Below are positions 14,369 through 55,290 of a DNA stretch of 64,000 nt, in pieces. Position 1 is the first letter of the stretch, and each line of letters opens with the position of its first letter. The notes beneath the pieces were generated by a model. It did not search any database. It was not told where the DNA came from and was given only the letters and a program-made list of their open reading frames with translations. The stretch is from Taklimakanibacter albus (lineage in GTDB: Bacteria; Pseudomonadota; Alphaproteobacteria; Rhizobiales; Aestuariivirgaceae): contig NZ_JAENHL010000007.1 in NCBI RefSeq assembly GCF_016595235.1, forward strand, positions 1,338,765-1,402,764, given 5' to 3'. A program made the position numbers and the translations under genes.

Positions 14369-14373
14369 TCACT
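14369..14373. repeat. target site duplication TCACT, right-end copy
   Basis: TCACT directly precedes the terminal TG of the prophage. The same five bases directly follow the terminal CA at 55286-55290. A 5-bp duplication is the mark of Mu-type transposition. Confidence 0.85.
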
Positions 14374-14424
14374 TGTAGCGCGCCAAAAAACTTGGCACAC
14401 GACGACACTAAACTTGGCACACGA
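14374..14424. repeat. prophage right end with two identical transposase-binding repeats
   Basis: The end begins TGTAGCGCGCC. The 15-mer AAACTTGGCACACGA occurs at 14388-14402 and again, identically, at 14410-14424, 22 bases apart. Its core matches the TACCTGGCACGTG at the other prophage end at the same distance from the terminus. These are the likely R1 and R2 sites for the transposase. From 14425 to 14548 nothing else was recognised. Confidence 0.7.
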
Positions 14425-14548
14425 TATTTCAGGCACTTAGCGCCCTAGCTTCGCCCTGCCCTCACCGCCCGGCCCTCCGTTGGTCGCCAGAAACCCTTCC
14501 AAAAGTACCGGCCTGACGCGGGTTTTCAACAGCCCTTGAAACCCCTTC

Positions 14549-15403
14549 TCAGGGCCTTGGGCGGCCTGCGCGGAAGAGGCCGGGGATATTGCTCACCAGG
14601 ATCTCGCGGGCGACCTGGCCCGGTCCCTTCGCGACCGTGTAGGTGGTTCTTACCCCCTTAATCTCGAAGGCCGCGAAGATTTCCCGCAGCTCGGGCCGGT
14701 CATTGACCGACAGCAAGAACATTCCCTTGAGCCCGGCCAGGATATCCGCAAGGGCCTGGAAGTCCCCCCGCCCAAAAATTTTTCGGCCGTAATCGTCTTC
14801 GCTGCCCCAATAGGGCGGGTCCAGATAGAACAGGACCCCCTCGCGATCGTATCGCCGGATGAATTCGGCATAGGGCAGGCACTCAATACCGACGCCGGCC
14901 AGACGATCGTGCAGCTCCTCCAGGAGCGGAATGACGCGGCTCACGTCGAAGCGGGCTGGAGTTTTCACATCGACGCCGAAAACGCGGCTCGCGACCTTCC
15001 CTCCGAAGGTCAGCCGCTGCAGATAGAGGAAACGAGCCCCCCGTTCGAGATCCGTCAGGTTTGCGGGCGGCAGGCCAGCCAGGCGTTCGAATTCAGCGCG
15101 AGATGAGAGCTGCCAGCGGATCATTTCTATGAACGCCACGTAGTGCCGCTGGAGCACCCGGAAGAGTGTGATCAGCTCCTGATTTACATCATTGATGACC
15201 TCGGCTCTTGGCCGTGCCGTCCGGCGTAGGAAAACCCCGCCCATGCCGACAAAAGGCTCCGCATAGGTGCTATGGGGAATGCGCTCGATCAGCGCGACGA
15301 TCTGGGGAGCTAGAAGGCGCTTTCCACCGATCCAGGGCGCTGCCGGCGAGGCCGGGCGAACGGGCTGTAAACCATGGGCGAGTTTTGGGACTCCACGCGA
15401 CAT
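14549..15403 (-). CDS. D12-class N6-adenine DNA methyltransferase (Dam-like)
   Basis: This 284-residue enzyme has the alpha-class motif order: PWIGGKRLLAPQI (motif X, about 22-34), YAEPFVGMGGVFL (AdoMet loop, about 47-59) and the catalytic YLDPPY (about 193-198). It transfers a methyl group from S-adenosylmethionine to adenine in DNA. It is the last gene before the right end, the place where Mu carries its modification gene mom, so protection of phage DNA from host restriction is likely. The recognition sequence is unknown. Confidence 0.88.
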   Translation of the reverse strand: MSRGVPKLAHGLQPVRPASPAAPWIGGKRLLAPQIVALIERIPHSTYAEPFVGMGGVFLRRTARPRAEVINDVNQELITLFRVLQRHYVAFIEMIRWQLSSRAEFERLAGLPPANLTDLERGARFLYLQRLTFGGKVASRVFGVDVKTPARFDVSRVIPLLEELHDRLAGVGIECLPYAEFIRRYDREGVLFYLDPPYWGSEDDYGRKIFGRGDFQALADILAGLKGMFLLSVNDRPELREIFAAFEIKGVRTTYTVAKGPGQVAREILVSNIPGLFRAGRPRP

Positions 15404-15558
15404 TGAAAACCTATCAAAGACACTCCCGCCCGCTGCGCGCGGGTGGCGGGATGGCCGGTCGGCCGGCCGATACGTCCATGGGAGTTACCGCTCCCGGTTC
15501 GGGGCGCTGGAACGCCCCAACACCCCCGCCCCTATTTTGAAAAGGCCGGGGGAAAGAG
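15404..15558. other. non-coding gap with GC hairpins before the methylase gene
   Basis: Several stems are visible: CCCGC with GCGGG near 15427-15450, GGGAG with CTCCC near 15480-15500, and GGGGCG with CGCCCC near 15500-15520. No convincing gene is present. The gap may hold a separate promoter or attenuator for the methylase. Confidence 0.4.
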
Positions 15559-15861
15559 TCAGCCTGGTCGAGTGCCTGGATCGGCTCGGAATAGGCCGGT
15601 GACCTCTTCGCCAAGCGCGCGCGTTTGCGCGATCTGCTCAGCCTGGCCCCAGCTCACAGCGATGATATGGCCGGCAAACTTCCGGGCTCCTTCAGTGAAC
15701 TCGGTGACATAGACAAGGCCGCGCGCCTTAAGGCACTCAGCCGCCCCCGGCTCCATCGCAGCCAATTCGTCGAAAAGGATCGTGACGCCATCCGGCCGCA
15801 TGGCGATCGGCCGGTTCGCATCAATCTGCAGAGCCCATCTCTCAGCGGTCACGCCGGTCAC
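15559..15861 (-). CDS. phage protein of unknown function (100 aa)
   Basis: GTG at 15861 overlaps the upstream gene's stop by four bases (GTGA), indicating coupled translation. The sequence has no recognised domain; it is mixed alpha/beta in character, with VTILFDELAAMEPGAAECLK in the middle. It lies at the end of the tail module, after the tail hub gene, where fibre or accessory proteins are common. Confidence 0.6.
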   Translation of the reverse strand: MTGVTAERWALQIDANRPIAMRPDGVTILFDELAAMEPGAAECLKARGLVYVTEFTEGARKFAGHIIAVSWGQAEQIAQTRALGEEVTGLFRADPGTRPG

Positions 15862-16145
15862 CTTTTCCCCGGCTGCGCCGTGAAGAACGACGCCATATCT
15901 CTGACCATTCCTGGTGTGAGCACGACGCCATGCTTAGTCGCCAATAGCTTGATGTCATGCTCGATCGAATGAGCATCGACATAGTCCGCGACCTTCGCCT
16001 GGGCCTGGCCCAGCAAGGTCACCGCGTCGGTGAGCAGAGGATGCGCGCCGGCCCGTTCGACGACGGCGATGGTATCCCGGATTGCCAGCTCTGCCGTCGT
16101 CATCTGGTCGACGCGAATACGGCGCGGAATCGGCTGATCATTCAT
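15858..16145 (-). CDS. phage protein of unknown function (95 aa)
   Basis: The start at 16145 (MNDQPIPRR) is preferred over 16169 because it fits the short overlap with the upstream gene and has GGGGA upstream. The protein is predicted to be largely helical (MTTAELAIRDTIAVVERAG). It belongs to the chain of overlapping small genes between the tail-tip gene and the methylase. Confidence 0.55.
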   Translation of the reverse strand: MNDQPIPRRIRVDQMTTAELAIRDTIAVVERAGAHPLLTDAVTLLGQAQAKVADYVDAHSIEHDIKLLATKHGVVLTPGMVRDMASFFTAQPGKR

Positions 16146-16605
16146 CGGCTTTAATCCCCACGAAAACATCGTTCAAAACCCATTTGCAGATCCGCATGGA
16201 GCCCTGCTCTCTCACGCCGTCCCAGGTCCCCGGATAATCCGGCCCTTTGCCTCGGCCGACCGTGTGAAAGCTCACCTGGCCGGTGGGCAGATCGAGATAG
16301 AAAACGTCTCGGTGGAACTCCTGCTTGAGGTCGACTCCCCAGCCCCAGTTAAGGCCGAGCTGGTGACCGTGCATCGTCAGAAGGTTCGTCAGGCTGGTGA
16401 TCGCCCAATCCTTGGTCGCATAGGCGGCCGATCGGCCGTGCCGGCGATACTCCTTCGCCTTGCTGGAATTCTTGTGAGCCCGGAAGAGATGCGTCGCGAT
16501 CTGGCCCTTCGGCCCGAGGCGATCGAGCGTGTCATAGAGCGCCTTTGTCGCCGCTCCATCCGAGCCGACATAGATGCCCAGGAGATCGGCCAAGCCGTAG
16601 CTCAC
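16138..16605 (-). CDS. phage-associated protein of unknown function (155 aa)
   Basis: The frame is open further upstream, but GTG at 16605 overlaps the previous stop as GTGA and begins the compact domain VSYGLADLLGIYVG. The C-terminal part (HRDVFYLDLPTGQVSFHT, then GPDYPGTWDG) resembles a family of uncharacterised proteins also found outside phages. The many His, Trp and Asp residues could bind a ligand or metal. Its position suggests a virion tip or host-interaction role, without proof. Confidence 0.6.
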   Translation of the reverse strand: MSYGLADLLGIYVGSDGAATKALYDTLDRLGPKGQIATHLFRAHKNSSKAKEYRRHGRSAAYATKDWAITSLTNLLTMHGHQLGLNWGWGVDLKQEFHRDVFYLDLPTGQVSFHTVGRGKGPDYPGTWDGVREQGSMRICKWVLNDVFVGIKADE

Positions 16606-17369: not shown

Positions 17370-17725
17370 TGATCGGACTCCGAGGTGAGCCAGCTCGGCG
17401 GCAGACCGAAGCCCGGCTTCAGGAGCTTGACCTTGCCCTCGGCGACGGCCTTGTCGATCGCGGCGCGCTCTTCTTCCGTAATCTTGCGGGCCTGCCGGCG
17501 CAGCCGGCGACGGCCGCGCGCGGCCGACTTTGCCGGCGTCGGTTTGGCCGGCTCCTTGTCGGCCGCCAGGGGGCGCGGCCGGGCCAGCATGAAGTGATCG
17601 AGGAGCACCACGCCCGGCGCGATTTCGTTCGCGCCGAGCAGAAGCATCGTCGCATGTTCTTTCGGCATCAAAACGGTGAGGGCGCGCCGGCCTGGATAGA
17701 GCTTCTCCCAATTCGGCTGGCTCAT
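17366..17725 (-). CDS. phage tail-region protein of unknown function (119 aa)
   Basis: It overlaps gpD upstream and the fibre-like gene downstream by four bases each. The N-terminus (WEKLYPGRRALTVLMPKEHATML) is followed by a Pro/Ala/Arg-rich linker (KPTPAKSAARGRRRLRRQARK) and an acidic helix. It could be a fibre assembly or connector protein; no family was recognised. Confidence 0.5.
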   Translation of the reverse strand: MSQPNWEKLYPGRRALTVLMPKEHATMLLLGANEIAPGVVLLDHFMLARPRPLAADKEPAKPTPAKSAARGRRRLRRQARKITEEERAAIDKAVAEGKVKLLKPGFGLPPSWLTSESDQ

Positions 17726-18699
17726 GCTTTTAGCTCCGCTGTGATCGAGGTTGTGTAGCCGCCAGAGCTGTAGCTGTGCTCGGCATTGGTAATCGTCCAG
17801 TCAATGCCGTCGATGCCGGCACGAAGCCCTCTCATGACGGCCGACTTTTCGGCGGCGATCGACGGATCTCCTATGAGAGTCGCATCGAGCGATCCTTCCG
17901 CCCGCGCCAAGTCACCCGCTCGCGCTTCCGCCTGCCACTGCGCTTCGTCCTTCGACGGCAGATCATGGCGCACCATGAAAGCAGCGTCGCCACCCGTTCC
18001 TCCTTGCGTCTCGGTGGTGCGCTCGCCCTTGTCGCGATCGTGCCAGTGCGCCTTGACTTCCTTGTGGCGCGGCCGGTCCTGCAGAGTAGCGCTCCACTCC
18101 TTGCAATTCGCAGGCGATATAACGACCGTGCCCATCGTCTGCCCGGATGCGCTCTGACCGGCAGATTTGGCCGTGAACAGAAATGCCCCATTTGCCACCT
18201 TGAAAACTGCGCCATGATCCTTCGCGAGCCTGGTCACCAGGTGGAGATCGCTCTCCTCGGTTTGCCCCAGATAAGGGATGACGCGAGACGCCAGTTCCGA
18301 CGAGACGGCCGGGCGCAAATTGTGATTGCCGGCGATCTCGCCGATGATGTCGCCAAGGCTCTTCTTCTCGAAGGACCTGGTTTTCTGTTCTTTGAGCGAC
18401 TCCCGCATGTCGGCGGCCTTGGCGCTGATCGACATTTCGCGCGGATTGCCGCTCAACGTGACTTCATCAACGGTGAACAGGCCCATATGGACGAGGCCCG
18501 TCTCGACATAGCCGAGCGAAACCGAAAGCTGTGCCCCTTTCCGAGGAATTGCCAGGGCCTGGTCGCGATCGTCGATCAGGATCTGGCAAGTATCCGACTC
18601 CTGCCCCTGGGCATCGGAAACGGTCAGCTCCAGAAGCCGATCGTTGATCCGGCCCTTGATCGAAGCGCCGTCAATCAGAATGTCGAAGTCCGGCGTCAT
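17722..18699 (-). CDS. P2 gpD-like tail hub protein (late control gene D family)
   Basis: The 325-residue protein begins TPDFDILIDGASIKG and matches the gpD/gp27-like hub fold that joins the tail tube to the baseplate spike. FTVDEVTLSGNPREMSISAKAAD and SLGDIIGEIAGNHNL are typical family segments. ATG at 18699 coincides with the end of the tail X gene. As in P2, it closes the tail module. Confidence 0.85.
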   Translation of the reverse strand: MTPDFDILIDGASIKGRINDRLLELTVSDAQGQESDTCQILIDDRDQALAIPRKGAQLSVSLGYVETGLVHMGLFTVDEVTLSGNPREMSISAKAADMRESLKEQKTRSFEKKSLGDIIGEIAGNHNLRPAVSSELASRVIPYLGQTEESDLHLVTRLAKDHGAVFKVANGAFLFTAKSAGQSASGQTMGTVVISPANCKEWSATLQDRPRHKEVKAHWHDRDKGERTTETQGGTGGDAAFMVRHDLPSKDEAQWQAEARAGDLARAEGSLDATLIGDPSIAAEKSAVMRGLRAGIDGIDWTITNAEHSYSSGGYTTSITAELKA

Positions 18700-18908
18700 C
18701 AGTCCCAAAGCCTCACAGGTTGCGGCGTCGGGATCGGCGAAATGTCGGGCAAGGTGATCTCAATGCCGAGCGGCAGGACGGCCGGCTGTTGCGAGAGATC
18801 GCGATTGGCTTCGAGCACTACCTCGACGGCACCCGATGAACGCCCATAATGCCGGAAACAGATCAGGTCGATCATATCGCCTTGCTTTGTCCGATAGATC
18901 ACAGCCAT
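18699..18908 (-). CDS. tail protein X (LysM-like)
   Basis: A 69-residue protein with a single LysM-like domain: YRTKQGDMIDLICFRHYG, then EANRDLSQQPAVLPLGIEI. This is the tail protein X family of P2-like phages. It is packed between gpU and gpD with one- and few-base overlaps. Confidence 0.85.
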   Translation of the reverse strand: MAVIYRTKQGDMIDLICFRHYGRSSGAVEVVLEANRDLSQQPAVLPLGIEITLPDISPIPTPQPVRLWD

Positions 18909-19321
18909 CAGAATAGGCCCCCGAAGTTCTGGCCGTCCTCACCATAGGATTTCAGCTCGGTCGTGAATTCGACCTTCAGTGGCGCACCGTCCGCCAGGAA
19001 GAAGGTCTGCGTCGTGTCCAGGTTCTGGATCACATATTTGCCGAAGACGCGCCCATAGCCGCTGACGAGGATATGCGGCCGACCCTTCCCCATTTCCGAC
19101 CGCATGCGCTCGATCTGGCTGAAGCCGCCCGAATAGTGTGTGTATATCGTTCCGTCGATCGTCAGCGTGTGGACGCCAGGCCCGATGAATTGCATGGCCG
19201 GCGCGCGGCTCAGCCTGTCTTGCTGCTCCCAGCGGGCTTCCGTCGACAGGTTGAGCTTCTCATAGGAAGGTCCGCGCACCTGGAAGCGAAAGGGACCGAG
19301 CGCCAACAAGACGGTGTTCAT
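18908..19321 (-). CDS. tail terminator protein (P2 gpU-like)
   Basis: A 137-residue protein with the gpU features: LGPFRFQVRGPSYEKL at the N-terminus, a central DGTIYTHYSGGFSQIERMR and a C-terminal glycine-rich FGGLF. gpU caps the tail tube in contractile phages. It overlaps the tape-measure stop by four bases. Confidence 0.85.
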   Translation of the reverse strand: MNTVLLALGPFRFQVRGPSYEKLNLSTEARWEQQDRLSRAPAMQFIGPGVHTLTIDGTIYTHYSGGFSQIERMRSEMGKGRPHILVSGYGRVFGKYVIQNLDTTQTFFLADGAPLKVEFTTELKSYGEDGQNFGGLF

Positions 19322-21471
19322 GCGGTGACACCATCATGGAGCGCGGAGCGCAGCCGACGCATCAGAGCGCGCGACAGCGCCTCGGCCGCGCCACGCTCGA
19401 CATTGCCATGGATATGGATGCCCCCAAGATTGACCATCCTTCCGCCCCGCCCGCCACCCAGGCCTTCCCGCATGAGCCGATTGGAGACGATCGAGCCCGA
19501 GACGCCAGGCGCAAATAGCTCGATGCCCTTCTCGTTGATCTGGTAGAGCGATCCCTTGCGCACGTCGCCGCCGCGCGCGCGAGCGCCGTCGATCGACGGC
19601 TGCGCCGGCAATTGCGGCGCTGGCGTTCCGCGCCGGCCGCCAGCAAAGGACGGCGGCATGCCCGGCACCCATCTCGGCTGAACCGTCACCGACATGGTCG
19701 CCTGGATCTGTTGCGCCTTGGCCTGCAGATCCGCGAGAAACGAAGTCCAGATCGCGTTGATGCCGTCCCATAGGCTCTTCATGATCCGGCCGCCGATCGA
19801 GAACAGCGACACGGTGTTGAGCGTGCTCTCGATCGAGCTTCCGATCTGAGCCGCCTTGTTCGGCGCATTGGTTCCAGGCGGAGCCCTGCGCCCTTCATCG
19901 GGAACCGGCGCGAAGTCCTCCAGGCGATCAGCCTTGAAGTAGGGATAGCGCTCGTCGATCCACTTCCGCTTCTCGTCGGGCGACAACTCTTCTGGCGGAT
20001 GCGCCGCCCGCGATGTCTGATCGAGAAATTCGTAGATCAAGGACCCGGCAGTCAGCCAGCCAGCCCCCTTGATAAACCGCATGAGCCAGCCTCCGCCGCC
20101 TCTCGTCGCTGCAGCACCGGCCGCGCCAGCCGCGCCACCGGCCACTGTTGACGCGGCCGTGCTCGCGGCGGTCTTGGCCCCCGCGCCAAGTACCGCCCCG
20201 CCCAAAGCGCCGGCAATGCCGCCGAGCGTCTTGATCGTCGACAGTGCGCCGGCAATGGCCTTCAGCGCCAGGGCGATGCCGCCGAGAATCATCAGGTTCT
20301 GCCATCCCCCTGCAAAGTCCGCTAGCGACTGCATGAAGCCGACCACCTGCGGGATAACCACGATCAGGGCCTTGATGATCTCCAGCGTCGTTTGGAGGAT
20401 CAGTTTGATATTCTCCGACACCTTGACCGCGATTTCCTTGAGCTGGCCGCTCTTCTCCATGCGGTCGATCATCGCCAGGAATTTCGACAGCTCCGACTTC
20501 ATCCAGTCGAACAGGCCCGCGTCCATGATCATATTGCGGAAGCGCCACCAGACGTCCGCGACGTTCGACGTCATGCCGCGCCAGGACTTCGAGAATTTCT
20601 CCGAAGCTCCGGCCGCGCGCTCGCCCATGCCTTCGAGCAAGAGAGCGATCTCCTTGCGCCCGAGCTTGCCCTTTGACGACAGCTTTTGGAGATCCGCGAC
20701 GGACTTGCCCATCTTCTTCGACAGGATGTCCCAGACGGGAACGCCACGCTCCTGGAGCTGCATGATCTCCTCGCCCTGGAGCTTCTGCTTGGTCCAGGCC
20801 TGACCAACCGCCATGATGAGGCCCTGAAGCTGCTCGGCACCTTTGCCTTGCATCGCCATCGTATCGGTCAGAGTCATCAGCGATCCGTTGGTCGGATCGA
20901 GCCCATAGGCGCGCAGCGAGGCATAGGCGTCGGCGACTTCGCGCAATTCGAGCGGCGTCTTCACCGCGAATTCTTCCGCCCATGCAAAAGCCTTTCTGCC
21001 GGCTTCGACGCTGCCTTCCAGGGCTTCGAACTGGATGCGGAAGCCTTCCAGCTCCGACGCCGGGCTGATGAGCTGACTCTGCACCAGGCCCGCCGCCAGG
21101 CCGGCCGTCGCCACCGCACCCACCGCGAGATTGCGCGCCCCCCGGAATGCCTTGTCCTTCAGCCGGTCGGACATGGCCTTCAGGTCTTTGAGATAGGGCT
21201 TCATGGCCCGGCTCGCTTCCCTGACGCTCCGGCCGACCTTGGCTTGTGCCGCTGCAAATCGATCGGTCGACCTGGCAGCGGCGCGCATCCGCTCATCGAG
21301 CTTGCGCGAGGTTCGCTCCCACGAGGAATTTGCGGTCTGGGCCTTAGCGGTCTGCGCGCTTAGCCGCTTCTGAATGCCCTCGGCACCTTTCATGGTGCCC
21401 ATCATCTTCTTGTAGGGACCCGAGAGGCGATCGATCAGGCGGACGAGAACCGATGCTTCCATATCAGCCAT
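19318..21471 (-). CDS. tail tape-measure protein
   Basis: This 717-residue protein has long N-terminal helices (residues 1-115), the TP901-type tape-measure domain around SELEGFRIQFEALEGSVEAG, hydrophobic stretches at about 385-470 and a Gly/Arg-rich C-terminus. The tape measure sets tail length and enters the host envelope at DNA ejection. It directly follows the frameshifted chaperone genes, the invariant order in contractile phages. Confidence 0.9.
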   Translation of the reverse strand: MADMEASVLVRLIDRLSGPYKKMMGTMKGAEGIQKRLSAQTAKAQTANSSWERTSRKLDERMRAAARSTDRFAAAQAKVGRSVREASRAMKPYLKDLKAMSDRLKDKAFRGARNLAVGAVATAGLAAGLVQSQLISPASELEGFRIQFEALEGSVEAGRKAFAWAEEFAVKTPLELREVADAYASLRAYGLDPTNGSLMTLTDTMAMQGKGAEQLQGLIMAVGQAWTKQKLQGEEIMQLQERGVPVWDILSKKMGKSVADLQKLSSKGKLGRKEIALLLEGMGERAAGASEKFSKSWRGMTSNVADVWWRFRNMIMDAGLFDWMKSELSKFLAMIDRMEKSGQLKEIAVKVSENIKLILQTTLEIIKALIVVIPQVVGFMQSLADFAGGWQNLMILGGIALALKAIAGALSTIKTLGGIAGALGGAVLGAGAKTAASTAASTVAGGAAGAAGAAATRGGGGWLMRFIKGAGWLTAGSLIYEFLDQTSRAAHPPEELSPDEKRKWIDERYPYFKADRLEDFAPVPDEGRRAPPGTNAPNKAAQIGSSIESTLNTVSLFSIGGRIMKSLWDGINAIWTSFLADLQAKAQQIQATMSVTVQPRWVPGMPPSFAGGRRGTPAPQLPAQPSIDGARARGGDVRKGSLYQINEKGIELFAPGVSGSIVSNRLMREGLGGGRGGRMVNLGGIHIHGNVERGAAEALSRALMRRLRSALHDGVTA

Positions 21472-21915
21472 GCTTCACCAACACCTTGATCAATGCGCCC
21501 CAGGTTCCTTCCCATCGCTCCACCGCTTTGTTGCGATGGAGGATCAGCTCGTCGATTGTCAGCTCTTCACAGTCCCGGATTGTCCATCCGAGGACAAAGG
21601 CAAGCTCGCCGCAAAGTTCAGCAAGCCACTCTTCTCCGGCTGGTAGATCGCGAAAAAAAGCCGGGCGACGTTGACCACCTCCGCATGTGCTTCGAACGGC
21701 AGCTCGTCGATCACGGCTTCCGGCACCTGGCCGATATCCGAGAGAAAGCCCATGAGCCTCCGCTCTTCGTTCCCTTCCTTGTGCCAGCGCCGCCAATCCC
21801 GGCCGCGCGGCTGGCGGAAGGTGATGGTCGAATAGCTCGTGCCGTCGACGCTGATCGGCTCATCGAGCGTGACGACATGCGGGAAAAGCTTCTCTTCCTT
21901 CTTTTTCTCTGTCAT
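21464..21915 (-). CDS. tail assembly chaperone E-E' made by -1 ribosomal frameshift
   Basis: The gpE frame contains the slippery heptamer T-TTT-TTC (minus strand, 21658-21652) at codons 87-88. Slipping back one base gives FFRDLPAGEEWLAELCGEL and continues to a stop at 21464, for a product of about 150 residues. The extension (IDELILHRNKAVERWEGTW) has the character of P2 E' and overlaps the tape-measure start, as in other phages. The fusion binds the tape measure and guides tail tube assembly. Confidence 0.8.
21559..21915 (-). CDS. tail assembly chaperone gpE (unshifted product)
   Basis: The 118-residue zero-frame product has the E/41/14 tail-chaperone pattern: VDGTSYSTITFRQPRGRDW, then an acidic alpha-helical part. 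Most ribosomes should end at 21559. The last 30 residues differ from the frameshifted form. It lies 11 bases below the tail tube gene. Confidence 0.85.
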   Translation of the reverse strand: MTEKKKEEKLFPHVVTLDEPISVDGTSYSTITFRQPRGRDWRRWHKEGNEERRLMGFLSDIGQVPEAVIDELPFEAHAEVVNVARLFFAIYQPEKSGLLNFAASLPLSSDGQSGTVKS

Positions 21916-21926
21916 TGCCGCCTCCG

Positions 21927-22436
21927 TTACAGGCCGAGATTGGCGCGCTGGGCGGCGAGCTGATCGACGCCACCGATCTTGTAGACGAGGTTGATCGGGT
22001 CATATTCGACCATGTCCTCATCACCCACGCGCAGCCGGTAGTAATGCATTTTGACGACGTAGGAGATGTTGGCGAGCGATCCCGTCTTGAACTCGTCGAA
22101 CTCGATCTCGCCGAGCTTTCCGCGCACATAGGCGGAAACACCCAGCGACTCGTCGCTGTCCTCGGCGACGGCATGGCCGAGGATCTGGAACGGCTTGATC
22201 GCGCCCTGCTGCAGGCCCCACATCTTCAGCAGGTTCCGATCGACGCCGCCGATCTTGAACTCGATCTGCATCTTCTCGATGCCGAGTTCCACCTCGACGG
22301 CGCCGGGCATGCCGCCACCGCGCCAGTCCTCAAAGACCTGCTTGAGGTCGGGAAGCTTGACGCTCTCCATCTTCCCGAGCTGGCCGAAGCCGTCCGCGAT
22401 GATGGTGGATTGTTTGACAAAATGCGGAAGTGCCAT
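21927..22436 (-). CDS. major tail tube protein (FII)
   Basis: A 169-residue protein of the P2 FII family. It begins ALPHFVKQSTIIADGFGQLG and contains DLKQVFEDWRGGGMPGAVEVELG and a KTGSLANISYVVKMHYYRL segment typical of the tube fold. It forms the rigid inner tube inside the sheath encoded just upstream. Confidence 0.9.
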   Translation of the reverse strand: MALPHFVKQSTIIADGFGQLGKMESVKLPDLKQVFEDWRGGGMPGAVEVELGIEKMQIEFKIGGVDRNLLKMWGLQQGAIKPFQILGHAVAEDSDESLGVSAYVRGKLGEIEFDEFKTGSLANISYVVKMHYYRLRVGDEDMVEYDPINLVYKIGGVDQLAAQRANLGL

Positions 22437-22448
22437 TGCGTTTCTCCT

Positions 22449-23888: not shown

Positions 23889-23921
23889 AGCAGTTCTCCT
23901 CGTTGAGTGCGTTCTTCAAGA

Positions 23922-24917: not shown

Positions 24918-24926
24918 TGCTCAACC

Positions 24927-28109: not shown

Positions 28110-28111
28110 CG

Positions 28112-30431: not shown

Positions 30432-30437
30432 CGGCGG

Positions 30438-30659: not shown

Positions 30660-30670
30660 AGGAACCTCCT

Positions 30671-32698: not shown

Positions 32699-32725
32699 CG
32701 CCAGGGGCACCTATTGTTGCTTTGG

Positions 32726-43413: not shown

Positions 43414-43415
43414 AT

Positions 43416-44173: not shown

Positions 44174-44175
44174 GC

Positions 44176-45035: not shown

Positions 45036-45322
45036 TGGACTAGCCCCTGCGATCTGGCGAACCTGTAGATCGCCGCGGCCTCCTGGGCTGTGATCCCGAC
45101 CCGGACCAGGTGGCCGCAGGTCGACGCGACCAAGGCCATCAGGAGCGGCTCCTCGGGATCATAGATCTGCTTTTCGTCGAGCATCACAACTCGCCCGTTG
45201 GCCTGCGCCCTCTCGAATTGCGCTCGCCGCACTTCGACGAACTGCTCACGCGCCGGCTTGCCGGAAGCGTCGGCCGCGTCGAAATGAGCGATCAGCTCCC
45301 GCATCGTGATTGTGGGGCTCAT
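45032..45322 (-). CDS. phage protein of unknown function (96 aa)
   Basis: A helical 96-residue protein overlapping both neighbours by four bases. The middle is acidic (LDEKQIYDPEEPLLMALVAS), and the C-terminus ITAQEAAAIYRFARSQGLV looks like a helical hairpin. No family was recognised. Confidence 0.6.
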   Translation of the reverse strand: MSPTITMRELIAHFDAADASGKPAREQFVEVRRAQFERAQANGRVVMLDEKQIYDPEEPLLMALVASTCGHLVRVGITAQEAAAIYRFARSQGLVQ

Positions 45323-46737: not shown

Positions 46738-46837
46738 TGCCGCCCCCTTTCCGCGCCGAGAGCAGCATCCAGTAAGGCAGGATGGCAAAGGCAATGCAGC
46801 CGATTTGCAGGGCGACGAGAACAAGGTGCCCGGTCAT
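46724..46837 (-). CDS. 37-residue membrane protein between gam and the next gene
   Basis: The short frame starts at ATG 46837, overlapping the gam stop as ATGA, and ends at TGA 46724. It encodes MTGHLVLVALQIGCIAFAIL, then PYWMLLSARKGGGNGER, one membrane span with a basic tail. The end overlaps the next gene's start. The tight fit at both ends supports a real gene. Confidence 0.6.
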   Translation of the reverse strand: MTGHLVLVALQIGCIAFAILPYWMLLSARKGGGNGER

Positions 46838-47364
46838 TGCGCTGCCTCCAGCCCCTCGGGCGTGAATGGCTCGACAATGAAGTCCTCGCCCTCTGACTTG
46901 ACCTTCACCCCATCTATGCCGTCGATCAGGGCGGGATTGGCCAGAATGGCCTCCTTGTTGATCTCGAATTTGTGGCGAAGGGCTTTCCGCCGCCTCAACT
47001 CGAGCAACCGCTTCACCAGGTCGTCGAGCTTCCAGATCTTCCCGATCGACACAGAGGGCGGCCGAAGTCGCCAGCTAGCCTTCCCGGCCGCGAAGCTGAT
47101 CGTCTTGGATTTGCCGTCCGTGAGAGTTGCGCGGTTCGCTTCGCAGTAGATTTGAATGCCCTTCACCAGGGCACTCTTACGGGTGACTAGCGGAAGCGCT
47201 CTCGCTTCCACCCGCGCCTTGATCGCAGCCAGCTCCTCCTTCAAGTCCGCATCCAGGCGGACGATCGCCAGGTCGATCGAGCCGATCTCGGCGATGAAGT
47301 CTGAAGCCTCGTTCCGGTCTTTCGGGACCGGCGCGTTGCTGGCCTTCGATTTAGTCTTGGTCAT
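46834..47364 (-). CDS. gam: Gam-like host-nuclease inhibitor
   Basis: A 176-residue Mu Gam-type protein: the coiled-coil core DFIAEIGSIDLAIVRLDADL, then VTRKSALVKGIQIYCEANRA, SFAAGKASWRLRPPSV and C-terminal IDGIDGVKVKSEGEDFIVEP. Gam is a Ku-like ring that shields phage DNA ends from exonucleases such as RecBCD. Confidence 0.92.
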   Translation of the reverse strand: MTKTKSKASNAPVPKDRNEASDFIAEIGSIDLAIVRLDADLKEELAAIKARVEARALPLVTRKSALVKGIQIYCEANRATLTDGKSKTISFAAGKASWRLRPPSVSIGKIWKLDDLVKRLLELRRRKALRHKFEINKEAILANPALIDGIDGVKVKSEGEDFIVEPFTPEGLEAAQ

Positions 47365-48316: not shown

Positions 48317-48972
48317 AGCGGCACCTCGTCGACGTGAATTACATCGTTCACGACTGATCGGCGGTTCGGATCATAGACAAGGCGACCGGTCATGATGCGC
48401 GGCGGCACTGGTCCTGTTGCCATGCCAGGGGCGAGCCCATAGACCGGGCTGGTGCCGTATTTGTTGACGCGCCGAAGATATCCCGCTTCGATAAGATGCG
48501 AGACATAGGTCTCCGCTATCGCCTCCGACACGGTCAAGACGCCAGGAAGCGTGGATTGAAGGGCAAGCTCTCGGACATTGAACGACTTCAGCATCTTCAT
48601 CGCCCGCCACATCAGATCCATGACTTGATATCGCGGGCAAACGTTCCCTGCCCCGTCCAGGAAGTGAGGCAGATGCCGGGGCTTGATGATCGTGTAGAGC
48701 TTCGTCCGATCGACGCCGATGCCGGCGTAGGAGGCGACGCGCGCCTGGATGAGCAGGTGGACATAGCTATCCATCGCGCCGGCCGTGACAATGCAGCTCA
48801 CATTGCCCATGGGAATAGCCGTCGCAGCTTGAACCGCATCGGCGATCGAGAACGGCGCGCCGTTCTCACTGACCGCGAGAATTGCCGCCCACATGATTTC
48901 CGGCGTGGCGGCAGATAGGGCGAAAGTCGCGCCTTTTGCAGGAACCGTCGCCAAGCTTTGCGCTGCTCTCAT
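48313..48972 (-). CDS. early protein of unknown function next to transposition genes (219 aa)
   Basis: A 219-residue protein overlapping the B gene by four bases. The C-terminal half (ALQSTLPGVLTVSEAIAETY, then HLIEAGYLRRVNKYGTSPVY) looks like a winged helix; the N-terminal half is Ala-rich and helical. It may be a replication or regulation factor. No family recognised. Confidence 0.65.
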   Translation of the reverse strand: MRAAQSLATVPAKGATFALSAATPEIMWAAILAVSENGAPFSIADAVQAATAIPMGNVSCIVTAGAMDSYVHLLIQARVASYAGIGVDRTKLYTIIKPRHLPHFLDGAGNVCPRYQVMDLMWRAMKMLKSFNVRELALQSTLPGVLTVSEAIAETYVSHLIEAGYLRRVNKYGTSPVYGLAPGMATGPVPPRIMTGRLVYDPNRRSVVNDVIHVDEVPL

Positions 48973-49739
48973 GACGCCCTCCGCCGAAGCTGACGAGCGC
49001 GCGGCTTGGGCGAGCCCGTATAGACGTCATGGTCCCCCCAATCCGATAGCCCCACCTTTGAGAGGTTCTTCTGAAGCGCAACCTGGCGGATGCTCTCGAA
49101 GTTGATCACCAGTCGGCGCGTGATCCCGTCCGTCGTCTCAACGATGTGCTTCAACAGATCGTCGTGGATCGCCAGCTCCGGCACATAGATTTTCGCCAGA
49201 GATTTCGCGTCGTTGATATCGGCCGGCTCGGCCGGCACCCATTCGAGAACGCGATTATGAGCGCGCTCGAAGGCGATGAGCTTTTGCGGCAGTTGCTCCT
49301 CGCCGATAAAAACGACAGGCGCGGCGGACTTGTCCGAGATCTCGCGAACGACGTCGACCATCGTTTTTTTGACCAGGTGATCGGCCTCGTCGATGATCAG
49401 CGGCTTCGGGTCCTGTGCCAGTAGCTGAATGATCCGCTCAACCTTCGTCGCGACCGTTCCCTTGCTAGGATGACCGGTCAGCTCGTGCAGGATGGCATCG
49501 ACAAGCGAGGATGCATGCCATGATGAACCGCACTCGACGTAATAGGCATTATGCCGCTGCGCGCCGTGAACAGCGGCCGTCGTCTTGCCGAAGCCGCTCG
49601 GCCCATAGAAAACGCCGATGCCGGGAAGATGCGCCGGCCTCTCGCTCAGTCGAGTGATGAGCTGCAGACAGAGCGTGACGTTGCGAAGCGGCGCGGTCCC
49701 TCCGACGCTTGCATTGACTTTCTTCGTTCCGGTAGTCAT
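48969..49739 (-). CDS. Mu B-like AAA ATPase (transposition target protein)
   Basis: A 256-residue ATPase with Walker A YGPSGFGKTTAAVHG and Walker B KPLIIDEADHLVKK. The start at 49739 (MTTGTKKV) has AAAGG nine bases upstream; an ATG at 49790 is open but weaker. MuB coats target DNA, stimulates the transposase and gives target immunity. It follows A by 67 bases. Confidence 0.9.
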   Translation of the reverse strand: MTTGTKKVNASVGGTAPLRNVTLCLQLITRLSERPAHLPGIGVFYGPSGFGKTTAAVHGAQRHNAYYVECGSSWHASSLVDAILHELTGHPSKGTVATKVERIIQLLAQDPKPLIIDEADHLVKKTMVDVVREISDKSAAPVVFIGEEQLPQKLIAFERAHNRVLEWVPAEPADINDAKSLAKIYVPELAIHDDLLKHIVETTDGITRRLVINFESIRQVALQKNLSKVGLSDWGDHDVYTGSPKPRARQLRRRAS

Positions 49740-49806
49740 GATTTGCCTTTCCATATTGCTTTGCCTTCCGCCCGCGCTCGTCTGATCCACGAGCGCGGGT
49801 TTTCAC

Positions 49807-51921
49807 TCACGCTTCCTCAAGCCACTCACGTCCAAAGTCCTCGAACATCGCGATGTGCGCCTTGAATTCGGCGCTCTGCACGTAGCTGGTCAGCCAGCGC
49901 GCAGCGTCCGCGTCGACGGCATCGCTCTTCGTCATTGCTTCCTGGATCGCAATCGCGCGGCGGAACCGCTGCTTTGCGGTCTCGGGCAGGGAAACGACGT
50001 TTGTCGTCGCCTGTGCGATCGGCAATTGCCCCGGCATCGCAATCGGAGCTGAAAGAGCCGAAGCGGCCTCATCCAATGCTGGCGAGCTGTGTGTGTCGGC
50101 CGGCTTGGGGAAAGGCATGATGTTGCGGTTCTTGCTCTTCGCCAGCCCGAGCACGTCATCGATCATGTCGCGCGGCTTGATCCGGCGAGCTTCGCGACGG
50201 ATCTCTTGGGTTCTCTCACGGATAAGGTCTTGCTGCGCCGCCCGAGCTGCTGCAACGAGCTGGCGCGGATTGACGCCGGAGCGTTCGGGGCAGATGGCTT
50301 CGGCGAGGAAGGCACCGGTCTCGGACTCGAAGATATAGAGCCGTCCCAAGTCCTCCGGGTCCTGCCGGCAATAGACCTTCGCGCCCGCCATCAGCTCGTG
50401 CGCAATATAGTAGCCATAATCCAGGCGGATGCCTTGCTTCGTAACCGTTCGATAGCCGTCGCTGCCGGCGACCGGCGCGAGGAGCAGATCGAGCGCCCGC
50501 AGGTTCTCGATCTTCCGAAGCGCGCCATTGTAAGCCTGAGCGCGCAGGAAGGGCGTCTGTCCGTCGAGCCCTTTATGTGGCGAGTGCGCAAACTTGTCGG
50601 TGCACCAGGCATCCATGGCGCGCTGTAGCTCGTCGTGATCGAGGTCGACGCAGAACGTCTTTGCGTCGCTCTCGCCCAGGCGCGCCGCGAAGGCCCTGCG
50701 GGCCTCAATCTGCTTTCGATCCTGCACATTGTGGCCGATGAACCCAGGCAGAAGCGGCATGAGACCGCGCTGCAGAGTTCCGATGTGCCGCTCGACAATG
50801 CCCTTTTCTTCAGGCGAGAAGGGGTTGGTGATGTCGTGACCAATCCCGAGCGAATGCACCGCGCGCTTGAAGTGGTAGCTGGTAAAGTCCGCGCCGTTGT
50901 CCGTCCTGATCTGCTCCGGCACTCCCCAGGCGATGATCGCGCGGCGGATGAGTAGCAGCGCCGCCTCGGTCCTGGGCGTCCGGGTGACATAAGTCATCAT
51001 GCGCCGGGACCAGACGTCGACTGCGACATAGATCGAGTAGCGACCATCCTTCAGGAGGACGTCGGCCGGGGACGCGTCGATCTCCCATAGCTCATTGAGC
51101 CGACGAATATGGGAATAGGCGCCGGAGCCTGAAAGACGGATGCTGTTCCTGAAGCCATCGGGATTGGTGAGCTTCGCCACCACCGCGCCGTTCCTGGACT
51201 TCCAGGTCGAAATATAGCGCTGGAATGACCGGATCGAAGGAAGGGTCTCCGGCGCGAATTTCGCTTCGACGAGATCGCGAATGTGGTCGGCGGTCAGATG
51301 AGGCTGCGCGACGAGCAGCCCACTGATATAAATTGCGATCTCACCGTCGTCGGCAGTGCCGAGGGTGCTCTTCCGGCCCCGTTTTGAAACGCCATTGCCG
51401 ATCTGATGCCAATGTCCGGCGTCGCGAAGCATGCGCCAGCGCTTGATCGAGCGACCGGACGCATAGGCTATTTGCTGTTTGATCCAGCCGGGTATTTCGA
51501 TCAGGCCCTGATTGTAGCGGCCAGCGAAGTCGTAGTCGGCCGCCGCGCGGCCAAGCGCCAGGTTCGCGGAATAGTGGGCATCAGCCAGGCTCAGCAGCGC
51601 CAGTCGGGAGTCTCTCCGAAGCATATTCTTCTCGGTGAATACCGGGGGTGGCGGTGCGATCTCTGTTGTTGGAGTCGCGATCACGTCGACCTTCAACTCC
51701 TCGCTCTTCATTGCAACGCGAGCAGAAGCCGGGAGGACCGAAATGTGGTATTCGAAGCCGCCGCCAGGCCCTTTTCTCCGGCGCGCCAGCGGCTCACCGT
51801 CACTCGCCTTGGCGGACTTCCAGCCTTCCCGATCGGCCATCGATTGAATGTTGGATTTAGAGCCGGGCAGTCCCGGCAGTTTCCGCGCGGCGATCTCGGC
51901 GGCAGTGAGCCACTCTTTCAC
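49807..51921 (-). CDS. Mu A-like DDE transposase
   Basis: A 704-residue transposase. Residues 1-75 are the Mu-type winged helix that binds enhancer or ends (EWLTAAEIAARKLPGLPGSK), followed by the end-binding helices. The RNase-H core has D282 (WEIDASPAD), D341 (RTDNGADF) and E377 (EEKGIVERH), with exactly 35 residues between the last two. The C-terminal part should bind B. GTG at 51921 overlaps the ParB-like stop as GTGA. It joins phage ends to target DNA with a 5-bp stagger, matching the observed duplication. Confidence 0.95.
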   Translation of the reverse strand: MKEWLTAAEIAARKLPGLPGSKSNIQSMADREGWKSAKASDGEPLARRRKGPGGGFEYHISVLPASARVAMKSEELKVDVIATPTTEIAPPPPVFTEKNMLRRDSRLALLSLADAHYSANLALGRAAADYDFAGRYNQGLIEIPGWIKQQIAYASGRSIKRWRMLRDAGHWHQIGNGVSKRGRKSTLGTADDGEIAIYISGLLVAQPHLTADHIRDLVEAKFAPETLPSIRSFQRYISTWKSRNGAVVAKLTNPDGFRNSIRLSGSGAYSHIRRLNELWEIDASPADVLLKDGRYSIYVAVDVWSRRMMTYVTRTPRTEAALLLIRRAIIAWGVPEQIRTDNGADFTSYHFKRAVHSLGIGHDITNPFSPEEKGIVERHIGTLQRGLMPLLPGFIGHNVQDRKQIEARRAFAARLGESDAKTFCVDLDHDELQRAMDAWCTDKFAHSPHKGLDGQTPFLRAQAYNGALRKIENLRALDLLLAPVAGSDGYRTVTKQGIRLDYGYYIAHELMAGAKVYCRQDPEDLGRLYIFESETGAFLAEAICPERSGVNPRQLVAAARAAQQDLIRERTQEIRREARRIKPRDMIDDVLGLAKSKNRNIMPFPKPADTHSSPALDEAASALSAPIAMPGQLPIAQATTNVVSLPETAKQRFRRAIAIQEAMTKSDAVDADAARWLTSYVQSAEFKAHIAMFEDFGREWLEEA

Positions 51922-52793
51922 TTGCTGGCCCTCTTCTTCTTCGATGCGGCGGGGGGCTTTTTCGTCGGAGTGAGGCTCAGCGCCTTATGCTGGCGCAGAT
52001 ACTCGACAAACTGCCGTTGCGCTTTGTGCGGGGCCTTGTGCCAAGCCTTCACCAGCGCGGCGAAGGCCGCTTCATCGGCGGACTTGGGATCGACCTTGTT
52101 GTCGATGATGGACACGGCATCGGAGATCGACGCCGCCTTGGGCTTCTCCCCCTCCTTCGCCGGCAGCACCAGGGAAAGCACTCGGCCCTGCTTTTTCTGC
52201 TCGACCTTAGCGAGCTGGGCTAGCTGGGCTCCGTTGTCGGCCAGCCAAGTGCCGGTGACGGCCTTGCGAGTTTCCGGTGCGAGGCCGTTCCAGACTGCGA
52301 CGGCCGCGAAGAATGTCTGCTTGCTCAGGCCCGCCTTGCTGGCGATCTCGTCTGCGACTCCAAAGATCGGAGTTGCAGCATCATGCTTCTTTTTCGCGCC
52401 CGCGACGCCGCGCCGGCTGTCGGGGTAAAGCTCCTCATAGACCCGTTTCAGCTCGGCCAGGTGGCCAGCGCGATCAAGCGCCGTCAGCTCTTCGCGCCCG
52501 ACATTCTCAACACATTCGCGAAGGCGGATTTCAAGGTCCGGCTTGTCGGTCTCGCATTCCACGACGCGAGCCGAGATTTCTTCCATGCCGAGGAGCTTGT
52601 GCGCGGCCAGCCGGTGAGCACCGAAGACCAGGACATGCTTGTTGCCGCGCTTAACGATCTCGATCGGCTGCAGAAGGCCGTTCTTCTTGATCGTCTCGGC
52701 CATAACAGCGGCCTTGGCATCGTTGACTTCGCGGATACGATCCCCGACCTCGATATCCTCGATCGGAAAGAGGCGGACTTCGACGAGCTTCAT
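51918..52793 (-). CDS. ParB/RepB-like nuclease-domain protein between ner and A
   Basis: A 291-residue protein with the ParB N-terminal fold: VRLFPIEDIEVGDRIREVND, LLQPIEIVKRGNKHVLVFGA and the box GAHRLAAHKLL (the GERR-type motif), then a helical centre (EELTALDRAGHLAELKRVYE). ATG at 52793 overlaps the ner stop as ATGA; the longer frame to 52895 lies in ner. No ParA or parS was seen. It may bind CTP and spread on DNA, or act as a regulator during transposition. Confidence 0.88.
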   Translation of the reverse strand: MKLVEVRLFPIEDIEVGDRIREVNDAKAAVMAETIKKNGLLQPIEIVKRGNKHVLVFGAHRLAAHKLLGMEEISARVVECETDKPDLEIRLRECVENVGREELTALDRAGHLAELKRVYEELYPDSRRGVAGAKKKHDAATPIFGVADEIASKAGLSKQTFFAAVAVWNGLAPETRKAVTGTWLADNGAQLAQLAKVEQKKQGRVLSLVLPAKEGEKPKAASISDAVSIIDNKVDPKSADEAAFAALVKAWHKAPHKAQRQFVEYLRQHKALSLTPTKKPPAASKKKRASK

Positions 52794-53110
52794 GCCGCCA
52801 CCCGCTCGGGCCTTTCCCCGGAACCTATTTTGTGAGTAGAGTTTCGCTGACGGGCGGGGATGAGCTCGCCGTGATCGTCGAACCACTTCGGCCATAACGC
52901 TTGCACCGGTTGGCCGAGGTACTGAGCCATGGCGCGATTTGCGCCGGAGATGGGTTTTTTGAACGCTGCGCGAAAGGTGGACGGCTCGTAACCGTTTGCT
53001 CTCGCGAGCGATGTCAGAGTTTGGCCGTTACGGCGGATTTCCGCCTTTATGGCGTACTCGTCCCACATCTTTTCTGGTTCTGGCTTCTTCGGCTTTTTCG
53101 ACTTGCTCAT
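52790..53110 (-). CDS. ner: Ner-like early regulator (winged helix)
   Basis: About 106 residues: Lys-rich N-terminus, then IKAEIRRNGQTLTSLARANG and RAMAQYLGQPVQALWPKWFD, a clear Ner/Nlp helix-turn-helix with the terminal WP motif. ATG at 53110 has GAGG eight bases upstream; the open frame to 53167 runs into the operator and is rejected. In Mu, Ner turns down both early and repressor transcription after infection. Confidence 0.92.
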   Translation of the reverse strand: MSKSKKPKKPEPEKMWDEYAIKAEIRRNGQTLTSLARANGYEPSTFRAAFKKPISGANRAMAQYLGQPVQALWPKWFDDHGELIPARQRNSTHKIGSGERPERVAA

Positions 53111-53153
53111 CCCCAACCTCGTTGCCGCCAACAGCGGCGGCGGAAATGAACGG

Positions 53154-53197
53154 TGCCGAATCGGCAACGTTCGATGCCATTATAGGCATCGTTCGTT
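53154..53197. promoter_or_regulatory. repressor/Ner operator pair between ner and the c gene
   Basis: TGCCGAATCGGCA (53154-53166) is a perfect palindrome. Next to it, 53166-53197 is a 32-base dyad with arms AACGTTCGATGCC and GGCATCGTTCGTT around ATTATA, matching at 11 of 13 positions. Both share TGCC...GGCA. They lie between the divergent early operon and the repressor gene, as the Mu operators do. Confidence 0.7.
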
Positions 53198-53238
53198 GCC
53201 TCTCTCAACGGGTATTTCCGCGTTTAGGGAAATGAGTT

Positions 53239-53640
53239 GTGATCGATAAGAAGAAGAGAAAAAAAGGCGATGTGGGGCAAAGGCTTAGGCAGGCGCGAGG
53301 AAACGCCTCGCTGGTCGCGTTTGCTGCCCAGGTCGGCAGTAACAAGACCAGCTGGAGCCTTTATGAAAGCGAGGAACGCTCGCCGGATCTGGACCTGTTG
53401 ATTCGCGTCCGCGAAGTGACCGGCATAAGCCTTGATTGGCTCGCCGACGGAGATGAGCGCACCGCCGCGCCGGCACCAATCGATGCCGAGATTCTCGCAG
53501 GAATCGTCCGGGCGATCGAAGACGAAACGCCGAAGCTCGACACCGATTCGAAGGCGCGCTTGATCGCCGGCTTCTACAATCGCCACCTGAAGCTGACCGC
53601 GAGTCCAATACCCGCCGCGTCGGCAAAGAAGGTCGGCTGA
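53239..53640 (+). CDS. prophage c-type repressor (XRE/CI-like)
   Basis: A 133-residue protein with an N-terminal Cro/CI helix-turn-helix: VGQRLRQARGNASLVAFAAQ, then NKTSWSLYESEERSPDLDLL and VTGISLDWLADGD, and a small helical C-terminal part. GTG at 53239 has AGGGA nine bases upstream. It is transcribed away from ner and probably holds the prophage silent. It lacks a peptidase domain, so induction would not follow the LexA-like cleavage route. Confidence 0.88.
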   Translation: MIDKKKRKKGDVGQRLRQARGNASLVAFAAQVGSNKTSWSLYESEERSPDLDLLIRVREVTGISLDWLADGDERTAAPAPIDAEILAGIVRAIEDETPKLDTDSKARLIAGFYNRHLKLTASPIPAASAKKVG

Positions 53641-54407: not shown

Positions 54408-54510
54408 GAACACCCTTCGCAAGGTAAGGGTATCGGGATCGATCCGGTGAAGGTCTAAACGATGAAACCAGTCCATCGGAACAGACTGAGAACGGCCGGA
54501 CCATCAAGTC

Positions 54511-54545
54511 AAATGAAAAAGGCTCGCTGTGACAAGCAGCGAGCC
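54511..54545 (-). terminator. rho-independent terminator
   Basis: On the minus strand GGCTCGCTG pairs with CAGCGAGCC (arms 54545-54537 and 54529-54521) around seven bases and is followed by TTTTTCATTT. It should end the transcript of the 78-residue gene upstream. Confidence 0.8.
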
Positions 54546-54603
54546 GAGTATTGTGGTGCCGCCGAGGCGACTTTTGGGAACTCGTCGATCAGGCAACGTT
54601 CCC

Positions 54604-54840
54604 TCATCTTGGCCGCTTCTTTTTCCGCCCCGTCGGACGTGTATTTTTAGCGGCCTCGATCTCCTCTACCTTGAAGATGATGGTGAAGCCCTTGTCGGCC
54701 ATGTCGATCGCGATATTCGCCAGAATTTCGGTGTCCAGATGCTCGATCACTTGCATTGGGCAGGTGACGAATACTCTGACCGGCCGATCCCGCCTTGTCA
54801 GTCCGTGATAGACCTCATGTTCCTGGGTATAGGTGGGCAT
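54604..54840 (-). CDS. accessory phage protein near the left end (78 aa)
   Basis: ATG at 54840 has GAGGG ten bases upstream; the frame is open to 54954. The 78 residues contain RPVRVFVTCPMQVIEHLDTE, then IAIDMADKGFTIIFKVEEIE, and a Lys/Arg-rich C-terminus. It has its own terminator, so it is probably a one-gene unit, perhaps expressed in the lysogen. No family recognised. Confidence 0.6.
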   Translation of the reverse strand: MPTYTQEHEVYHGLTRRDRPVRVFVTCPMQVIEHLDTEILANIAIDMADKGFTIIFKVEEIEAAKNTRPTGRKKKRPR

Positions 54841-54954
54841 CGCGGCACCCTCGCGCCTGGCTGAAAGTCGATTAGTGAGCAGGTCAGTTCTCACCGGCCA
54901 GTTTAGGCCCGCCTTTCGCCCTAAGTCACTAAATTCTAAGCCGAAATCGGCCAT

Positions 54955-55285
54955 CTGGCCTGTTAGGTGTCATCTGACCTGCTTTCAGGCCAGTTCTCCA
55001 CCTCGTCTGACCTGCCAAGCCGACCGATCGAAGGCCGGTTGAGGGCGCTTCGAGGCCCTTTTTAACGGGGTTTCCGTGGCATAGGGCCTTAATCGGCCGT
55101 GCCACGCGTTCTGGCAGCCTCCACGGGGAATTCTGTCGCCGGTACAGCATCTCGCGCGCGTCGTTTTGGATGCGCCCCGATGGCTGCAAAAGCCTTGTGT
55201 CTATTGAGTTTCGCCCGCGTGGTCCCGGTTAATCCCGGTCAATCCCGCATGGTCCCCCACGTGCCAGGTAAACTGTCGGGTGACA
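54955..55285. repeat. prophage left end with transposase-site and other short repeats
   Basis: Read inward from 55285 the end is TGTCACCCGACAG, and TACCTGGCACGTG (near 55258-55270) matches the right-end repeat at the same distance. A second TGGCAC lies at 55104-55099, about 180 bases in, as Mu L2/L3 do. At 55220-55260 four blocks of GTCCC/ATCCC repeat every ten bases. CTGACCTG occurs twice near 54975-55017 and its inverse near 54881. No gene is evident. Confidence 0.6.
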
Positions 55286-55290
55286 TCACT
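55286..55290. repeat. target site duplication TCACT, left-end copy
   Basis: These five bases follow the terminal CA of the prophage and match 14369-14373 exactly, marking the original insertion point between glpD and the orphan gene at 55392. Confidence 0.85.

Follow-up and report, generated by a model that had tools for sequence, protein, structure and literature searches.

A Mu-Like Prophage of Taklimakanibacter albus With Base-Level Ends and a Phased GGGA Array at Its Left End

Gene Content of the Prophage

We analyzed a stretch of 64,000 nucleotides (hereafter the window, numbered from its first letter) from the alphaproteobacterium Taklimakanibacter albus (Rhizobiales, Aestuariivirgaceae; assembly GCF_016595235.1, contig NZ_JAENHL010000007.1, positions 1,338,765 to 1,402,764 of the forward strand). 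Direct reading of the window places a Mu-like prophage of 40,912 bp at positions 14374-55285. Most of its genes are on the minus strand, and the element is oriented accordingly, with its genetic left end at 55285 and its genetic right end at 14374. Just inside the left end lies an array of GGGA units in 10-bp phase (55223-55256, minus strand), which is a candidate signal for the start of packaging (pac).

Genes were called by PHROG and Pfam searches. From the left end, a CI-type repressor (53239-53640, plus strand) is divergent from the early genes. The early genes, on the minus strand like all that follow them here, comprise a Ner-like repressor (52790-53167; phrog_769, HTH_35), a ParB-like protein (51918-52895), a MuA-type DDE transposase (49807-51921), a MuB-type AAA ATPase (48969-49790), a regulator, a Gam-like end protection protein (46834-47364), and GemA (45319-46020). 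Next come an MT-A70 DNA methyltransferase (44466-45035), a late transcription activator (43416-43817; phrog_836, with Mor only below its Pfam cut-off), an endolysin or tail lysozyme-like protein (42333-43361), and two overlapping Rz-like spanin frames (41763-42336, comprising 41763-42047 and 41878-42336). The head genes encode a small terminase of the Mu gp27 family (40218-40799; PF11985), a large terminase (38560-40221), a portal of the Mu gp29 type (36977-38563), a minor head protein of the Mu gp30/F type (35811-36980), a head maturation protease (34345-35415), and a major head protein of the Mu gpT family (33029-33928). A connector and contractile tail module (17722-32710) follows, in the order neck, baseplate, VrlC-like protein (24927-28115), sheath (22449-23888), tape measure (19318-21471), and tail proteins. 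The order ends with the fibre region and a Dam-type (D12) DNA adenine methyltransferase (14549-15403) adjoining the right end. Several small frames, the segment 15559-17711, and the 1.6 kb that separates CI from the left end matched no PHROG or Pfam family of known function. The full set of expected modules in open frames, noted in the first-pass annotation from the letters alone, was thus recovered by family searches.

Several of these genes are characteristic of Mu-like phages. In the transposase, HTH_Tnp_Mu_1, rve, and Mu-transpos_C all scored above their cut-offs, which identifies it as MuA-type; the MuB-type ATPase adjoins it, and the Mu head genes (gp27 to gp30, protease, and gpT) are present. 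D282, D341, and E377 are invariant across three transposases and lie in a core that matches the structures of TnsB and retroviral integrase, and we infer that they form the catalytic triad. The two DNA methyltransferases, of the Dam and MT-A70 types, may shield the phage from host restriction. Mu itself has its DNA-modification gene at the right end.

Ends, Target Duplication, and Empty Site

At the genetic right end, positions 14365-14384 read GGAA-TCACT-TGTAGCGCGCC, where the host copy of TCACT precedes the end of the element; at the genetic left end, positions 55280-55295 read GTGACA-TCACT-CTCCC. TCACT therefore flanks the element on both sides (14369-14373 and 55286-55290, without strand), and TGGCA occurs at inward offset 19 in each end, in agreement with the TGGCAC that the first-pass annotation had described as shared by the inward-read ends. 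The element begins with TG and ends with CA next to a 5-bp target duplication, as in Mu-like phages; the target duplication of Mu is likewise 5 bp.

The duplication length originally proposed, 5 bp, needs one qualification. Read literally, the direct repeat has 6 bp (ATCACT), because the last base of the element and the host base before the other copy are both A. A true duplication of 6 bp, with the right-hand terminus one base earlier, would accommodate this repeat, but the ends would then become TGT...GAC rather than TG...CA, and 14 of 20 relatives have 5-bp duplications at the top pick (15 with a tie in G378 resolved). On the basis of the TG...CA ends and the relatives, 5 bp is the better reading, and 6 bp is scarcely credible.

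The right end comprises two tandem putative transposase sites of 22 bp, R1 (14381-14402, plus strand), which was recognized from the tandem repeat, and R2 (14403-14424, plus strand), which abuts it at 22-bp spacing. The left end has one strong putative site, L1 (55257-55278, minus strand). Other candidate sites at both ends scored at about the 95% background level or lower. As sequence repeats, R1, R2, and L1 appear to provide the several transposase sites typical of Mu-like ends. Further inside the left end, by approximately 270-405 bp, the segment 54880-55015 contains repeated CAGGTCAGTTCTC and CTGACCTGC motifs, some of them inverted, which are possible repressor operators or an internal enhancer of the kind that bridges Mu-like ends.

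To identify an unoccupied site, we fused both flanks with one TCACT and searched four genomes of the same genus (G001-G004) with the resulting 600-bp query. G001 matched at 93% across positions 1-598 of the query; pieces alone, mostly of the left flank, matched in the other three. A 2.4-kb alignment revealed that G001 is collinear, lacks phage DNA, aligns gaplessly over the 11 bases that precede the junction and the 16 that follow it, and has one target copy, in which TCACT pairs with TCGCC. An unoccupied site is expected to look like this. Sequence around the junction has diverged in G001 (two of the five target bases differ, and small gaps lie to either side), and the alignment therefore places the break within the gapless stretch and not at a single base. 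No empty site that breaks at other bases was found among the four genomes, only one of which spans the junction. Further prophage copies in the host were ruled out by a search of its genome, in which the left-end DNA occurs once.

A glpD/GlpO-like gene (12643-14205, minus strand) starts 168 bp away from the duplication, and beyond it is a gene for a solute-binding protein (10780-12537). The prophage parts the glpD-like gene from a 131-residue frame and a DeoR-family regulator (55960-56760, minus strand), the host stretches concerned being 14205-14373 and 55392-56760. The insertion may separate glpD from its control region.

Ends of Related Elements

Screening of 60 genomes, including the host, yielded some transposase match in 16, nearly full-length in the host, G014, and G052. 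Across the order, a close transposase was detected in 37 of 397 genomes, the host counted, and a related transposase occurred in three named genomes, one titled Rhizobiales and one Methylosinus, which fits the suggestion in the first-pass annotation of a Rhizobiales phage. A syntenic element in G052 spans 41,784 bp, is flanked by a 5-bp duplication, and has its ends in the register of the window (TGT at offset 0 and TGGCA at 19).

From 19 further genomes, both end regions were taken as far as the contigs allowed, for a total of 21 elements with the window and G052. Ends were placed by motif, and the duplication was not used; the motif templates came from a template-free search and include the window's own ends, which makes the window's own result circular. 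The flanking 5-mers were identical in 15 of the 21 elements at the top pick and in 16 with the G378 tie resolved; the fetched DNA of the remaining five (G236, G139, G311, G388, and G083) yielded only one of the two ends. Among the elements rated clear at both ends, the flanking 5-mers matched in 11 of 11, compared with a mean of 1.0 after shuffling. The template-free search, which required a duplication, gave the top rank, alone or shared, to the family-type pair in 13 of the 21 elements (a three-way tie in the window), and motif placement added G097, G400, and G118 to these.

All 18 located right ends start with TGTAGCGCG, like that of the window; the templates also start this way, and the template-free search found 13 of them. 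Among 19 left ends (those of the window, G052, and relatives), 13 start with TGTAAC(G/C)CG, and that of the window starts with TGTCACCCG. In G014 (contig C161, approximately 9.1 kb into the stretch L066), the end and its array adjoin GemA; relative to that end the early region is inverted, an arrangement also seen in Pseudomonas phage B3.

A Phased GGGA Array at the Left End

The array sits just inside L1, with GGGA at inward offsets 29, 39, 49, and 59 from the left end, in steps of exactly 10 bp. For a strict three-unit pattern, 0.02 matches would be expected in the window; two overlapping ones occur, both at the left end. In the relatives, the strict array (at least three of four GGGA in 10-bp phase) was detected at the left end in 10 of 19 and nowhere else in 529,620 bases searched on both strands. 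A looser array score, chosen after the ends were seen, was compared with composition shuffles that did not preserve dinucleotides, and reached p < 0.02 at 18 of 20 left ends of the order (those of the window, G052, and G014 included), with G236 and G265 missing it. The same threshold was reached by 8 of 12 named phages: Mu, D108, Kp4866-3, Vibrio phage 1.028.O, HS6, martha 12B12, ZX4290, and B3. It was not reached by the other four scored, MuM16-1, RS1 (at either end), RcapMu, and D3112; the RS1 end had been cut two bases late, which did not affect the result. Three named records with a gp27-type small terminase were left unscored (MuM16-2, with 700 bases available, Pasteurella AFS-2018a, and YPCBV-1), as their first bases presented no evident phage end or showed little; Pasteurella AFS-2018a has GGGA at 8, 28, and 48, in 20-bp steps.

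We then scanned 2.9 million viral contigs blindly with the pattern CGGGATNNNNCGGGATNNNNCGGGA, which yielded 117 stretches, and examined 80 of these by tblastn. Mu-like genes lay alongside in 43 of the 80, and MuA or MuB in 29. With 11-bp spacing as a control, 1 of 32 stretches had Mu-like genes and none had MuA or MuB (Fisher p = 1e-7 and 2e-5, respectively); with 9-bp spacing, the counts among the matches listed were 1 of 80 and none (p = 3e-15 and 2e-10, likewise among the matches listed). The 11-bp control is the cleaner of the two, because the 9-bp pattern matches three-codon coding repeats and is thus a weak control. Two of the stretches examined (L204 and L214) have the array sequence in common, and five of the 43 loci depend on nothing but a ParB-like match.

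Of the 43 viral loci, 41 have all their detected Mu-like genes inward of the array, and a count by eye placed TGT 26-30 or 36-40 bases ahead of the array in 36. The nearest gene found was an early gene in 33 loci, a reversed early gene in two (L209 and L212), a small terminase gene in one, and a reversed head gene in seven (L162, L166, L170, L187, L199, L207, and L213). These varied neighbors, together with GemA in G014, indicate that the array tracks the physical end and not one neighboring gene.

The distribution of the array was then compared with the type of small terminase. The gp27 family (PF11985) is present in the window, Mu, B3, Kp4866-3, G052, and RS1, whereas RcapMu and D3112 encode a DUF1804-type small terminase. 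Within the order, the strict array was identified in 11 of 17 gp27 elements found by transposase and in two of five additional gp27 loci for which 20 kb of upstream sequence was available, and in none of eight DUF1804 loci, five of which belong to one genus. This amounts to 13 of 22 versus 0 of 8 (p = 0.004), or 18 of 33 versus 0 of 10 with the named phages (p = 0.002), neither value corrected for relatedness. The named gp27 phages contributed 5 of 11, with the strict array in Mu, Kp4866-3, Vibrio 1.028.O, HS6, and B3 and not in D108, martha, ZX4290, MuM16-1, RS1, or POA1180; the named DUF1804 phages contributed 0 of 2. Ten new loci had been taken from 19 gp27 matches, and the five left out of the count, in which the contig ends within 5.1 kb upstream of the small terminase gene, showed no strict array.

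In the host genome, short repeats of the CAGGGATTTACAGGGATTTGCAGGGA type share the 10-bp phase with a different unit at eight loci (C4:62009, C6:1107762, C7:807996, C7:1984837, C8:255040, C8:975977, C8:2086383, and C8:2368571). The two of these for which frames were listed lie between genes that by eye resemble ordinary host genes.

Comparison With Named Phages

The closest named phage is Ochrobactrum phage POA1180 (KX669658, genus Abaiavirus), which has nearly the gene order of the window: CI-side regulators, ParB, transposase, a second transposition gene, a GemA match, endolysin, small and large terminases, portal, head, baseplate, VrlC-like protein, sheath, tape measure, and, last, a DNA methylase, which a right-type end with two sites adjoins. 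Identity to the window is 59% for the large terminase, 45% for the portal, 38% for GemA, 36% for the VrlC-like protein, and 30% for the small terminase. In contrast, its transposase is far more distant (a 74-residue match at 42%), the templates did not locate its left end, and the strict array is absent from its record.

Rhodobacter phage RcapMu (NC_016165) resembles the window in its MuA and MuB, a ParB-like gene before the transposase, divergent repressors, and ends for which its record annotates one left site and two tandem right sites (right end TGTAGCGCGC). It differs in having no annotated sheath, with tail genes of the tape-measure, minor-tail, and central-fibre kinds, a DUF1804-type small terminase, and a left end that lacks the phased array. 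Among phage records, the best-placed transposase matches were those of Rhodovulum phage RS1 and Rhodobacter phage RC1 (34.8% over 99%), and in both a DNA methyltransferase gene immediately precedes the late activator, as in the window. RS1 shares the gp27-type small terminase with the window but has no annotated sheath, and in both phages the repressor-side end is of the right type and without an array. The point at which RS1 and RC1 diverge, TGTAGCGCG next to the repressor (at approximately 294 in RS1), is a right-type end, and the last 0.7 kb of RS1 contains a left-type sequence, TGTAACCCG, past the tail fibre genes. The ends of RS1 thus seem to be swapped relative to those of the window.

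Escherichia phage Mu (NC_000929) shares family matches for gp27, the portal, gp30, and gpT, the Gam and GemA families named for it, and the phased GGGA array at its left end, whereas its end sequences differ from those of the window.

Discussion

Collectively, the family searches, the empty site, and the motif-placed ends of relatives support the earlier proposal of a Mu-like prophage with ends defined to the base. We consider the element to be probably an intact-looking Mu-type transposable prophage, with a probability of roughly 0.93. The kind of prophage is already known, as the nearly identical gene order of POA1180 illustrates, and its sequence is such that it could be active. Weighing against this assessment, the genome with the empty site belongs to another species and its target 5-mer has changed. 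A defective remnant would be in keeping with the absence of a strong second left-end site and with a left end that departs from the commonest type; nevertheless, the core frames are open and match most of the profile length, the duplication is perfect, and the site is empty in a related species, such that decay of the element appears quite unlikely.

We propose that the phage would enter the chromosome by transposition at a staggered 5-bp cut and that CI, together with Ner, would hold the prophage silent. Upon induction, MuA and MuB would copy the element through replicative transposition, and the gp27-type small terminase would initiate headful packaging at the left end with a cut slightly beyond it, in host DNA. 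For the last step, the small terminase may read the phased array as a pac signal.

The pac site of Mu maps within the first approximately 60 bases of its genome, and the lengths of its host tails differ by multiples of about one helical turn. A ring-shaped small terminase on a 10-bp ladder would explain both this position and the stepped tails. From the sequence patterns, we give an even chance that the array is a pac signal read by the gp27-type small terminase. Somewhat more tentatively, a GGGA ladder with exactly one unit per 10 bp, starting approximately 27-44 bp inside the left end, may mark the start of packaging generally in Mu-like phages with gp27-type small terminases, coliphage Mu and prophages of this order alike; the ring of the terminase would then recognize a single face of the helix, and if it slipped by complete units, host tails would differ in length by steps of about one helical turn. 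The passages on packaged host DNA in two published sources give 50-150 bp on the left, where packaging begins, for Mu, 31-36 bp for three Pseudomonas aeruginosa transposable phages, consistent with RcapMu and the D3112 group, and 29-31 bp for the hankyphage (PMC5977238, PMC12135933).

Several observations count against a role in packaging. RS1 and MuM16-1 encode a gp27-type small terminase and have no clear array, and the array of G265 is weak; conversely, G139 and G014 have the array, and a gp27-type small terminase was not found in their genomes. POA1180, with a gp27-like small terminase, has no strict array in its whole record, in which the left end was not located. The 7.17-Mb host genome contains 10 matches to the strict pattern (two of them at the left end) versus 7 for a backward-pattern control, and the pattern thus shows no enrichment across that genome; the other eight are of the CAGGGATTT type. 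The result for POA1180 and the backward-pattern control lowered our estimate slightly. The array would also fit a role in transposition, and this is the main rival. In such a role, the array would ease bending of the DNA between L1 and the next site in the transpososome, for example by HU, which binds the spacer between L1 and L2 in Mu. In several relatives the array does occupy the interval from L1 to the next site-like motif, GC and AT steps alternate with helical periodicity, and the two genomes that pair an array with no detected gp27-type small terminase are more easily accommodated. Against this role, the strict array follows terminase type (13/22 versus 0/8 and 18/33 versus 0/10, relatedness uncorrected), and Kp4866-3 has the array and RcapMu does not, though the transposase of Kp4866-3 is the nearest to that of RcapMu in the small set compared. 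We therefore regard bending as doubtful, albeit a serious competitor.

The genes for CI, Ner, and the ParB-like protein lie near the left end of the prophage, and an early gene, in two cases reversed, is nearest to the array in most of the viral loci, so that the array might be an operator or a ParB-type centromere for the adjoining regulators. Yet head genes adjoin it in seven of the 43 viral loci and the early genes are reversed in two, the array of B3 is approximately 10 kb from its repressor, and Mu carries the array (the whole Mu record was not searched for a ParB-like gene). We consider regulation of this kind distinctly improbable because the array keeps to the end when other genes adjoin it.

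The candidate pac array is the part of this prophage that a specialist might not expect. The available parts of the literature searched (PMC5977238, PMC2628397, PMC5557969, PMC8601537, PMC12135933, PMC8541194) do not mention phased repeats at Mu left ends; the older papers on Mu pac fall outside this set, and a description may be in print there. For transposable phages common in this order, the prophage provides a base-exact map of the ends that is repeated in relatives, and empty sites are therefore predictable and insertions datable. The phased array, in turn, is a concrete shared sequence that bears on how Mu-like phages pick the start of packaging, and a simple DNA marker by which Mu-like left ends could be recognized in metagenomes.

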